DNA from: Alphaproteobacteria bacterium
Lineage (GTDB): Bacteria; Pseudomonadota; Alphaproteobacteria; RF32; CAG-239
Length of the DNA stretch: 42,454 nucleotides
Direction: 5' to 3'
NCBI GenBank assembly: GCA_017475525.1
Contig: JAFVFH010000048.1
Coordinates: 1 to 42,454 of the forward strand
Shown piece after piece: positions 4,520 through 40,449 of this stretch; position 1 is the stretch's first letter; each line of letters starts with the position of its first letter. A program made the translations under genes and the position numbers. The notes beneath the pieces are model-generated. The model was not told the origin of the DNA. It saw only the letters and a program-made list of their open reading frames with translations, and made no database searches.

Positions 4520-5797
4520 GTGTTAGAAGACGCTAATTTAGATGAAAACCAAAACGGTGAAGGCCTCGAGGAAAGAACTTGGGGCACAAGCTTCACGCTT
4601 GGCGGAACAACATATGCCACATCTTTGTTCTGGCAACCGCTGCGCAACAGCGATGATCCATACACCGAAATTAGCGAAGCGGCCGAAAACGTCTTGGAAG
4701 GCGCAGACCTTTTTGCCTTAAAAAAAGGTAAATCCCCGCAATTTGGTTTGTGTATTTCGTCACAAGGCTATCAAAAAGGTATGCCTGTTGCAGCCACCCC
4801 GCTCATCACAGCACTTTCTGACGCAACATCTTTCCTTGCTGTTTTCAAAGTAGACAGAGGCTGGTGGTATGTCTGCGTCAGAAACGATGTCATCTTGTCT
4901 GATGGTGATATGCTCTTTTTCAACGAGCAAGAAGCCAAAGACCAATTTTCATCGATGCTTGTCGTTCCTGACTGGGGCTACAAAATTGCGCCGGCAGAAT
5001 GGAACATTGAAGACACGCGAGAGGTCGAGCTTGCATCGCTTTTGAAAAACGCCCCGAAAGAGACCTTAAAAAAGGTCCATGCTTTACGTGGCACAAAATT
5101 GCTGATTGTTGTTGCCGCGGCAATCATTGCCGTCGCTTGGCTTATTTCGACCATCATCTCCACATTTTTCAATTCAGCGCCACCGAAACCGATTGTTGCA
5201 CCGATTGCCATTAAAAATGTTGAGCAGGCGCCGCCTCCGCCGGAACCGAAGCCTTGGGAATCGATTCCATCGCCCATACAAATCCTGTCCGGTTGCTATC
5301 AAGGTGTCCAAAACTTGGTCGGTATTTCGACCCCCGGATGGCACATCGGCGGCATCACATGCACAGCCGAAGGGCTCGTCACTTCATGGCGTATGGAAAT
5401 CGGTCGACTTTCGTGGATAGACAAAGCTTTAACGAACTCAGGCGTTGTTCTTTCGAGCCAATCAATTTCCCCGAGTGGCACGGAGGTTGTTGCTTCAGCG
5501 CCGATGCCTCGTATTGAAACATTAAATTCACCGCCGAAAATGAACGGGGTAGACTTAGTCAACACGATAAACGACTTGTTCCAAGGCTTGCAAATGGGCA
5601 TTTCTCTGTCCTCACAAACATGGACATCGCCACAAAACAATGTTTATAAGTCTGTCAGATTTTCTTTTTCCTCAAAACATAATCCGATGGTTTGGGCGGA
5701 TATCTTAACGAAATTTTCAGGACTTACGATTAATGTCATAAAATATGATACAAACACTAACAGCTGGTATTACGAAGGAGCTATCTATGTATTATAA
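4520..5797 (+). CDS. pilO: PilO-family type IVb pilus accessory protein
   Basis: A 425-aa bitopic inner-membrane protein. About 190 cytoplasmic residues come first, then one membrane helix near 195-216 (LLIVVAAAIIAVAWLIS), a Pro-rich linker with VEQAPPPPEPKPW, and a periplasmic domain of about 190 residues. Length, topology and position between secretin and PilP match the R64 PilO (pilin accessory) family, which is thought to connect the cytoplasmic motor with the periplasmic ring. The start is GTG 4520 with AAAGGA 8 nt upstream. The end overlaps pilP by 11 nt. The assignment rests on topology and synteny more than on motifs. Confidence 0.8.
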   Translation: MLEDANLDENQNGEGLEERTWGTSFTLGGTTYATSLFWQPLRNSDDPYTEISEAAENVLEGADLFALKKGKSPQFGLCISSQGYQKGMPVAATPLITALSDATSFLAVFKVDRGWWYVCVRNDVILSDGDMLFFNEQEAKDQFSSMLVVPDWGYKIAPAEWNIEDTREVELASLLKNAPKETLKKVHALRGTKLLIVVAAAIIAVAWLISTIISTFFNSAPPKPIVAPIAIKNVEQAPPPPEPKPWESIPSPIQILSGCYQGVQNLVGISTPGWHIGGITCTAEGLVTSWRMEIGRLSWIDKALTNSGVVLSSQSISPSGTEVVASAPMPRIETLNSPPKMNGVDLVNTINDLFQGLQMGISLSSQTWTSPQNNVYKSVRFSFSSKHNPMVWADILTKFSGLTINVIKYDTNTNSWYYEGAIYVL

Positions 5798-38851: not shown

Positions 38852-39037
38852 ATGAAAAAATGCGTTTATGACTACCAAAATTCCTGCACCTGCGCCGAAG
38901 ATGACAAATGCGGTTGCACCTTTGATGCTAATATGGCACACGACTTTTCTTGCAATTTTGAAGAAAAAAATATGCTTTTTAATCAACCTCAACCCAAAAA
39001 CACACCGCCCGAAGAACAAACTTCTTTACATTCATAA
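38852..39037 (+). CDS. 61-aa cysteine-rich small protein
   Basis: Six Cys are packed into the first 34 residues (positions 4, 12, 14, 20, 22, 34), with CTC and CGC pairs, a His and several Asp in between. A polar Pro/Gln-rich tail follows. The pattern suggests metal binding or a small zinc or iron-sulfur site; no family name is recognised. There is no signal peptide. AAGGAG at 38840-38845 lies 6 nt before ATG, a very strong site, which supports a real gene. The last 18 codons are duplicated downstream as part of the tandem RNA repeat, and the promoter of the first RNA lies inside its 3' end. Confidence 0.65.
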   Translation: MKKCVYDYQNSCTCAEDDKCGCTFDANMAHDFSCNFEEKNMLFNQPQPKNTPPEEQTSLHS

Positions 39038-39053
39038 TCTTTTCATATATTCT
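39025..39053 (+). promoter_or_regulatory. promoter of first tandem RNA
   Basis: TTTACA (39025-39030) and TATTCT (39048-39053) are 17 bp apart, inside and just after the 3' end of the Cys-rich gene. The expected start is near 39060. The same pair with the same spacing is kept in the second unit. Confidence 0.5.
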
Positions 39054-39060
39054 CGTTTTT

Positions 39061-39257
39061 GAATGGAACGATGAGTCCGTTTTGGGATTAAAGAAACCCT
39101 CCACAGAGCGTTATATTTTTATAACGAAATTTATTGCCTGAAAGTCTGATGACTGGAAGGCGGTGAATAAAACCTTTGCGGTTTAATAAGCCGCATCTAT
39201 CTCTGTGTAGTTTCTTTGCTTCCAGTCGCTGTTTTGACTCATCAAAGCGACTTTTTT
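39061..39257 (+). ncRNA. structured pseudoknotted RNA, tandem copy 1
   Basis: Predicted elements in order: 5' hairpin AATGGA/TCCGTT with loop ACGATGAG (39062-39081); GGG (39084-39086)/CCC (39097-39099); stem P3 CACAGAG (39102-39108) with CTCTGTG (39201-39207); hairpin CGTTATA-TTTT-TATAACG (39109-39126); stem P5 GACTGGAAG (39151-39159) with CTTCCAGTC (39219-39227); hairpin GCGGTT/AGCCGC (39178-39194); terminator GTCGC...GCGAC plus T7 (39225-39257). P3 and P5 cross, giving a pseudoknot. The loop motif GATGAGTC (39070-39077) is complementary to GACTCATC (39236-39243) in the terminator. The 5' end is estimated from the promoter. Family not recognised. Confidence 0.75.
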
Positions 39258-39258
39258 T

Positions 39259-39315
39259 AATCAACCTCAACCCAAAAACACACCGCCTGAAGAACAAACT
39301 TCTTTACATTCATAA
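39259..39315 (+). pseudogene. duplicated 3' fragment of the Cys-rich gene
   Basis: These 18 codons and stop repeat the end of the Cys-rich gene (NQPQPKNTPPEEQTSLHS) with a single synonymous change. There is no start codon or ribosome site, so it is a passenger of the tandem duplication, or is kept because it holds the promoter of the second RNA. Confidence 0.7.
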
Positions 39316-39331
39316 TCTTTTCATATATTCT
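39303..39331 (+). promoter_or_regulatory. promoter of second tandem RNA
   Basis: TTTACA (39303-39308) and TATTCT (39326-39331) with 17-bp spacing, identical to the first unit. The expected start is near 39338. Confidence 0.5.
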
Positions 39332-39338
39332 TGTTTTT

Positions 39339-39533
39339 GAACGGAACGATGAGTCCGTTTGGGAACAAAGAGCCCAATACCAAGCGTTATTTTTTAATAA
39401 CGAAATTTATTGCCTGAAGGTCTGCCGACTGGAAGGCGGTGAATAAAACCTTTGCGGTTGAATAGCCGCACTAACTTGGTATAGTTTCTTTGCTTCCAGT
39501 CGCTGTTTTGACTCATCAAAGCGACTTTTTTTT
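39339..39533 (+). ncRNA. structured pseudoknotted RNA, tandem copy 2
   Basis: Same order of elements as copy 1: AACGGA/TCCGTT hairpin (39340-39359); GGG/CCC; P3 ATACCAAG (39377-39384) with CTTGGTAT (39475-39482); hairpin CGTTATT-TTTT-AATAACG (39385-39402); P5 GACTGGAAG (39427-39435) with CTTCCAGTC (39493-39501); GCGGTT/AGCCGC (39454-39469); terminator ending in T8 (39526-39533). Relative to copy 1, three P3 pairs and one hairpin pair change on both strands and stay paired. GATGAGTC (39348-39355) again matches GACTCATC (39510-39517). The T run ends 25 nt before the next gene, so it could also act as its leader. Confidence 0.75.
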
Positions 39534-39558: not shown

Positions 39559-39957
39559 ATGACAGATTCTGATGATTTTTTTTATACCAAAGCCGAGCTG
39601 AACAAGCTCATCACACGCTTTCTCAAAGAAACACTAAAAACCGAAGGCATCACACAAGAAAAACTTTCTTCATTTCTTTGCCTTAACGTTTCTGAAATCT
39701 TAAAAAACGGCATATCCGATGACATCTATGGTTTCTATCTTTTGTTTACAAAATTTCCTTTGTTTTTTTCCCAAATGCACATGCGGGACAAACGTTGGCA
39801 CGAAATAACTTTTGAGCGTTATGACACAGAGATGTTTATCATAAATACTTTAGCTTTTTTGCCCGAACTGAAGCTTAAAGAAATCAAAAACGCAATCAAA
39901 GAATATCACAGCGCCTTTACCAAAGCGGCGGGATATGATTTTTCCGTCATGGACTAA
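39559..39957 (+). CDS. unrecognised 132-aa cytoplasmic protein
   Basis: A helical, mixed-charge protein without signal or membrane helix. Residues about 30-52 (ITQEKLSSFLCLNVSEILKNG) loosely resemble a helix-turn-helix, but the match is weak. I recognise no family. ATG 39559 has AAGGA 7 nt upstream; a longer frame would run back into the RNA repeat. It starts 25 nt after the terminator of RNA copy 2 and ends tail-to-tail, with a 4-nt overlap, with the next gene. Readthrough of the RNA terminator may be how it is expressed, since no separate promoter fits in the gap. Confidence 0.7.
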   Translation: MTDSDDFFYTKAELNKLITRFLKETLKTEGITQEKLSSFLCLNVSEILKNGISDDIYGFYLLFTKFPLFFSQMHMRDKRWHEITFERYDTEMFIINTLAFLPELKLKEIKNAIKEYHSAFTKAAGYDFSVMD

Positions 39958-40352
39958 AAACTCAAAGCCGCCTTTTGGCACATTGCCTCAAAGTCTTCGT
40001 TGACATCAGCCCTGACCAAAACCTGTAAAATCGTTTTGTTTCCTCTTTGCTCAAAAGGCAACAACACAAAATCCGCCTCACCGTCATATAGTGCAAAAAG
40101 GATTTTCTCTTTCGACCTTTTTTCTTCTTTAAGGCCCTTGTAACAATCAAAAACATAGTTTTGATAAAAAACCTCAAAATCCGGATGAAACATTGTTTTG
40201 AAGAACACGCCTTTTTTTTGCTCATAATAAATTTCATCTTCTTCAAAACCCAATGTTTTGAGCAAAATATACATCATCACCGGATAAAAGAGCCTGCTCT
40301 CTTTTTTCACGTTTTCAATCAAAGCCGTTACATCGATCTCAATTTTTTTCAT
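39954..40352 (-). CDS. shortened chloramphenicol-acetyltransferase-like protein lacking the catalytic His
   Basis: A 132-aa protein. Residues 4-34 (IEIDVTALIENVKKESRLFYPVMMYILL) follow the CAT pattern of DIT-L, a charged helix, then FYP..+YI. HPDFEVFYQNYVF sits where CAT has its P-x-[FY]-T-V-F strand. FVLLPFEQRGNKTILQVLVRADVNEDF sits where CAT has its LP...QVHHAVCDGFH end. The catalytic HHxxxDG is replaced by VRADVNE, and the length is about 60% of a normal CAT, so it should be inactive as an acetyltransferase. ATG 40352 is chosen; a TTG 21 nt upstream is possible. The similarity is judged by eye. Confidence 0.5.
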   Translation of the reverse strand: MKKIEIDVTALIENVKKESRLFYPVMMYILLKTLGFEEDEIYYEQKKGVFFKTMFHPDFEVFYQNYVFDCYKGLKEEKRSKEKILFALYDGEADFVLLPFEQRGNKTILQVLVRADVNEDFEAMCQKAALSF

Positions 40353-40449
40353 GTTCGTTTTTTTAGCTTTCAAGCGTTAAAAAAATGTAAAAATGATTGT
40401 CATCTTTAAAAAATATGATAAAAGCATAATATTATTTCGGAAAAAGAAA

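Follow-up and report, generated by a model that had tools for sequence, protein, structure and literature searches.

Tandem C4-like RNA elements from an alphaproteobacterium belong to a large family of predicted on/off switches found mostly before surface-protein genes

C4 is a known antisense RNA of phages with a role in immunity. It is cut by RNase P, and its a' and b' sequences pair with the target message; in Acinetobacter, C4 RNAs are highly expressed (PMC5320573). The record of phage P1 gives the order of its annotated elements as a1, b1, c4, a2, b2 and icd. A second small RNA, sRNA-Xcc1 (RF02221), has been mapped by RACE as an 88-nt RNA (PMC2996969) and lies upstream of symE in integron cassettes (PMC12444791). 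Rfam lists RF02221 as an sRNA without a clan, and the C4 and sRNA-Xcc1 families are given as separate entries (PMC12189769). Here we analyse a window of 42,454 nucleotides, positions 1 to 42,454 of contig JAFVFH010000048.1 from an alphaproteobacterium (assembly GCA_017475525.1), in which two tandem RNA units share the C4 layout. Our analysis suggests that they belong to a large, previously undescribed RNA family related to phage C4, whose members are predicted to act as on/off switches.

Layout of the tandem pair in the window

The elements share a common anatomy. From 5' to 3' they consist of a promoter-like site, hairpin P1, hairpin P2 with a1 as its loop, b1, the optional hairpin P3.1 and the 5' arm of P4a, followed by the shared strand S (GACTGGAAG), P5 with its conserved internal loop, P6 with b' in its loop and a', and finally by strand X (CTTCCAGTC), the terminator, a ribosome binding site and a start codon. 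The naming follows phage P1, a' being the strand after P6 and b' the P6 loop. The parts of the two window copies and the genes on either side are as follows.

38852-39037, plus strand: small upstream gene, 61 aa, its 3' end co-duplicated with the RNA
39025-39053, plus strand: promoter-like site of copy 1 (TTTACA, 17 nt, TATTCT), 9/12 in a consensus scan
39062-39081, plus strand: P1 hairpin of copy 1, expected RNA 5' end, from sequence and fold
39090-39097, plus strand: site a1 of copy 1 (AAAGAAAC), partner a' at 39210-39217, from a1:a' covariation across copies
39102-39108, plus strand: site b1 of copy 1, partner b' at 39201-39207 (P6 loop), from covariation across copies; stem P3 of the preliminary description
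39109-39126, plus strand: hairpin P3.1 of copy 1, optional across the family; the neighbouring hairpin of the preliminary description
39136-39161, plus strand: helix P4a of copy 1, 39136-39146 with 39151-39161, from covariation
39151-39227, plus strand: C4-like core of copy 1, with P4b (39151-39159 with 39219-39227, from covariation), P5 and P6 (39197-39210)
39224-39258, plus strand: intrinsic terminator of copy 1, from sequence, its 5' arm being the end of the P4b 3' strand
39303-39331, plus strand: promoter-like site of copy 2, from a consensus scan
39340-39359, plus strand: P1 hairpin of copy 2
39365-39371, plus strand: site a1 of copy 2, partner a' at 39485-39492
39377-39384, plus strand: site b1 of copy 2, partner b' at 39475-39482
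39412-39437, plus strand: helix P4a of copy 2, 39412-39422 with 39427-39437, from covariation
39427-39501, plus strand: C4-like core of copy 2, with P4b (39427-39435 with 39493-39501) and P6 (39471-39484)
39498-39533, plus strand: intrinsic terminator of copy 2, overlapping the P4b 3' strand, from sequence and covariation
39559-39957, plus strand: downstream gene, 132 aa, with an ATG start preceded by AAGGAA

The core model R1, which spans 91 positions, matches copy 1 at 39136-39227 with 81.3 bits and copy 2 at 39412-39501 with 77.9 bits. Promoter-like sites scoring at least 9/12 lie just 5' of P1 in 20 of 43 copies, compared with an expectation of 5.1. The product of the 132-aa gene was compared with Pfam and matched no family. 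On the minus strand, the ORF at 39957-40373 partly matches chloramphenicol acetyltransferase (Pfam CAT, E 4e-6) and is possibly a remnant.

The direct repeats 38976-39085/39254-39363 (96%), 39107-39188/39383-39464 (93%) and 39197-39261/39471-39535 (92%) mark the two units as a tandem duplication of 276-278 bp, which includes the 3' end of the preceding small gene. The duplication appears to be lineage-specific, since the relative genome G006 has a single copy before the orthologue of the 132-aa gene (L010/L114). The preliminary description of this DNA had placed a tandem pair of structured RNAs at 39061-39533. The second terminator does end at 39533, but the set of elements is larger and the co-duplicated DNA begins at 38976, inside the small gene. 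All eight base pairs that it named are present in the sequence, and the double changes that it read as compensatory changes in a selected RNA structure sit in helix b1:b' and in the small hairpin after it. The Rfam search that it had proposed returned no family at gathering score in the window. Its statement that no family with this layout is known does not hold, however, because the layout is that of the C4 precursor as annotated in phage P1, and the nearest family is RF02221, below its cut-off.

Copy-specific pairing and mutually exclusive helices

The long-range helices a1:a' and b1:b' are copy-specific in sequence in each copy read. The b' sequence matches its own b1 far better than the sites of other copies, with none of 2000 permutations as strong, and a' likewise matches its own a1 far better than the a1 of other copies (0/2000 permutations). 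Among the 77 of 126 copies with a 7/7 match, which were used for tabulation, all six standard pair types are seen at most positions. In the nested fold, pairing of a exceeds 0.5 in 110 of 121 copies and pairing of b in 112 of 121, while exchange of the upstream halves reduces these counts to 10 and 8. Covariation among homologues, proposed earlier as a check, is thus borne out, with pairing far above chance and b' preferring its own site. The earlier idea that sibling copies might act on shared targets is not supported. The codes differ between copies, distinct a'/b' pairs being found in 42 of 43 sampled copies of the genome that carries the families of ~165-aa secreted proteins, and a search of the present genome for the bipartite target of copy 2 found only its own a1/b1 and no second site.

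The second feature of the elements is a competition for shared strands. Over 16 distinct forms of the shared strand S, covariation is seen in all three helices: in P4a between S and the P4a arm, in P4b between S and X, and in the terminator between the end of X and the 3' arm (0/5000 permutations each). A terminator is found in 65 of 71 copies, and in 63 it has at least 2 nt in common with P4b; it is absent from some divergent relatives (L210, L217, L222, L223), and a terminator-like stem occurs in only 2 of 30 RF02221 loci. The helices a1:a' and b1:b', P4a and the terminator are nested and mutually compatible, whereas P4b crosses the a and b helices and overlaps both P4a and the terminator. 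Like an intrinsic transcription attenuator, the elements have a terminator and a mutually exclusive anti-terminator helix before a gene. The other two helices alone do not account for the direct covariation between S and X, so that selection appears to maintain the P4b state as well as the P4a/terminator state. The preliminary description read the crossing helices as a pseudoknot. Two alternative states are the simplest reading, and a true pseudoknot is possible but unneeded.

The predicted energies of the two states differ considerably. The nested folds of the window copies score -72.1 and -70.5 kcal/mol and those with P4b enforced -51.5 and -56.9 kcal/mol, from a program that scores no pseudoknots, so that enforcing P4b costs about 20 and 14 kcal/mol with pseudoknot energy left outside the calculation. 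The probability of P4b in the nearest-neighbour fold is about 0.01-0.02. Since this fold strongly favours the terminated state, the ON state would need a helper or pseudoknot energy beyond the scoring of the program. As a separate observation, the P1 loop of the window copy (GATGAGTC, 39062-39081) is complementary to the terminator loop (GACTCATC, 39224-39258). The association of the two loops (GATGA and TCATC) across copies is suggestive (Fisher p = 0.0007), but the swap test is weak (45/2000), and for this reason we do not claim a kissing contact.

The terminator/anti-terminator logic, the conservation of the P5 internal loop (AAAATAA / AATAT) in nearly all copies and the presence of many copies per genome before genes of similar function would also suit an orphan riboswitch, in which this loop binds a small molecule and the function is unrelated to C4. 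We consider this explanation very doubtful, because the long-range helices, being hypervariable and private to each copy, differ from those of riboswitch aptamers, and because kinship and layout match C4 and RF02221, whose a and b sites pair with RNA. Ligand sensing may still have a place as the trigger of an attenuator, with which it may be compatible.

Spread of the family and the genes behind it

The present genome holds 11 confident copies (model R1, E < 0.001). The same model detects relatives of the window RNAs in 130 of the 152 genomes analysed from its bacterial family, whose carriers are mostly metagenome-assembled alphaproteobacteria from gut and rumen. In other alphaproteobacterial families the element is sparser. 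Of 337 genomes sampled across the class, 21 have matches, and a small number of these belong to the own family. Two genomes have at least 137 and at least 92 copies, which are lower bounds obtained by scoring 150 candidates per genome. One copy (L092) lies on a contig labelled Ruminococcus sp., which is probably a mis-binned alphaproteobacterial contig. Two others (L140 at 4854-4986 and L149 at 2820-2947) carry an insert of ~40 nt with an inverted repeat (CATATATATACTAGTGATATATGG) in the P5 hairpin.

A same-strand ORF with a ribosome binding site follows 45 of 50 nonredundant copies, its start lying at a median of 49 nt downstream, compared with 4 of 46 when the antisense strand was used as control. 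Among the products are outer-membrane barrels, OmpA, Opacity, Surface_Ag_2, PilS, lipoprotein-like proteins and glycosyltransferases. Some products, for example HTH and methyltransferase proteins, are not surface proteins. Prepilin-like products are encoded by 18 of the 23 downstream ORFs sampled in one genome, and in a second genome most downstream ORFs encode secreted proteins of ~165 aa from related families with no clear Pfam assignment. The elements thus sit mostly before genes for pilins, outer-membrane proteins and other surface or secreted proteins. The paralogous ~165-aa family (MKNYILMLGVAGVALGSYCAYAGNSATMTVTATIAHDVSL...), which likewise lacks a clear Pfam family, is large in a genome of 1.6 Mb (L229, L234, L240, L245, L251, L256-L295), and every sampled member there lies behind its own predicted attenuator copy. 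The earlier view of the pair as regulatory or structural RNAs in tandem is upheld as far as selected structure is concerned, but the elements are mostly 5' leaders of genes, 45 of 50 copies being followed closely by a start codon on the same strand.

This gene context bears on two further explanations. In the first, each unit is a free-standing C4-like small RNA, for which the terminator is a plain 3' end. Its 5' end would be trimmed by RNase P at GACTGG, and its a' and b' would act in trans on other messages. The promoter-like sites and the terminator of each unit fit this explanation, as do the RNase P processing and high expression of C4 RNAs in Acinetobacter (PMC5320573) and the RACE-mapped 88-nt sRNA-Xcc1 (PMC2996969). 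We judge it unlikely, given the consistent 49-nt spacing to a same-strand gene, the absence from this genome of any bipartite target for copy 2 other than its own a1/b1, and the covariation between terminator and P4b, which a plain 3' end does not need. In addition, b' has no partner at its own ribosome binding site (1895 of 2000 permutations scored as low) or in the first 400 nt of the downstream gene. In the second explanation, the copies are remnants of decaying prophage C4 that have spread as functionless repeats. C4 is a phage RNA and the copy number in some genomes is very high, but covariation is maintained in every helix and the elements keep a fixed distance before intact genes, which makes such an origin extremely improbable. 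For the window copies themselves we rejected a prophage origin, because their neighbours (GreA, H+-PPase and MatE) are housekeeping genes and the neighbourhood is not phage-like.

A predicted attenuator and its relation to C4, sRNA-Xcc1 and tandem riboswitches

We consider it likely that each unit is a C4-type RNA acting in cis as a transcription attenuator for the gene behind it. The helices, their covariation and mutual exclusion, the terminator and the gene position can be read directly in the sequence, and from them we infer regulation, an OFF ground state and what might flip the switch. In the ground state, the nascent RNA would pair a1 with a' and b1 with b', the shared strand GACTGGAAG would lie on the local P4a arm, and CTTCCAGTC would be left free to form the terminator hairpin, so that transcription stops. 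In the alternative state, GACTGGAAG and CTTCCAGTC would pair as P4b in the C4 fold, breaking the terminator and letting the polymerase read into the gene. The a1/a' and b1/b' pairs would form the private code of each copy. The switch might be triggered by a small molecule or protein stabilising the conserved C4 core, by RNase P cleaving in front of GACTGG, or by an RNA that captures a1/b1. The weak complementarity of a' to its own ribosome binding site (1/2000 permutations) may add a translational role.

If the attenuator reading is right, C4 relatives appear to have been turned from a phage RNA into a host gene-control device with more than 100 copies in a genome of 1.6 Mb, one before each sampled member of a surface-protein or pilin family. 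This gives a testable explanation for the control of large surface repertoires in small gut alphaproteobacteria. We speculate further, as a rather unlikely extension, that expression is self-addressed, each surface-protein gene copy being switched independently by its own attenuator with its private a/b code, and that RNA released from a leader could free a1/b1 of new transcripts of the same copy and keep that copy ON. If true, such a system would make the choice among pilins or surface proteins heritable through RNA, with no rearrangement of DNA.

The relation to RF02221 was examined in both directions. RF02221 matches three copies of the family in the same register, with 30.1 bits (39427-39509, window copy 2), 35.9 and 34.5 bits against a gathering cut-off of 53, and a search over the own genome gave one weak match, away from the window copies. 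Conversely, the matches of R1 in 101,747 bases are confined to 11 RF02221 loci, where they lie exactly in place. The 30 RF02221 loci analysed (L169-L198) have a C4-type upstream a1/b1 domain. Another target pair overlies the ribosome binding site (0/2000 permutations), and their downstream genes include phage antirepressors (Bro-N, KilA-N, P22_AR_N, pRha) and SymE. A search of the own genome with RF01695 at E up to 1 found no match, and a literature search for C4 together with pilin, surface protein or terminator returned nothing relevant. Kinship and structure are well supported, and the core is a distant relative of RF02221 with recognisable common ancestry. The comparisons also suggest that RF02221, classed as an sRNA that acts in trans, is the core left after processing of a C4-type leader, and that a model of it should include the upstream domain.

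Compared with C4 of P1 and P7 (RF01695, with the related RF02944, c4-2), the window elements have the same a1 and b1 followed by a core with an acceptor-like stem and two hairpins, the same placing of b' in the loop of the second hairpin and of a' in the strand that follows, and the same position before a gene. In contrast to P1, which lacks an intrinsic terminator and carries a2 and b2 at the ribosome binding site of icd, they have P4a and a terminator and no b2, a search for b2 at the own ribosome binding site having found no match to b' there; nor do they match RF01695. They also serve genes for surface and secreted proteins, unlike the P1/P7 type, which serves an antirepressor or phage gene. 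By their sequence the units are C4-type leaders in which b2 is lost, a weak a-type match persists at the ribosome binding site, and P4a and the terminator have been gained. With sRNA-Xcc1 they share the same core, including the AATA-type internal loop, with reciprocal sub-threshold matches, and the upstream a1/b1 with the P2 loop, but RF02221 loci carry a2/b2 at the ribosome binding site, and the window family scores 30-36 bits against the cut-off of 53. The pair also resembles tandem transcription-attenuating riboswitch leaders, in which two complete units precede one gene, each with its terminator and anti-terminator helix. Unlike such leaders as generally known, however, the window units have no known aptamer and carry variable, copy-specific long-range helices.
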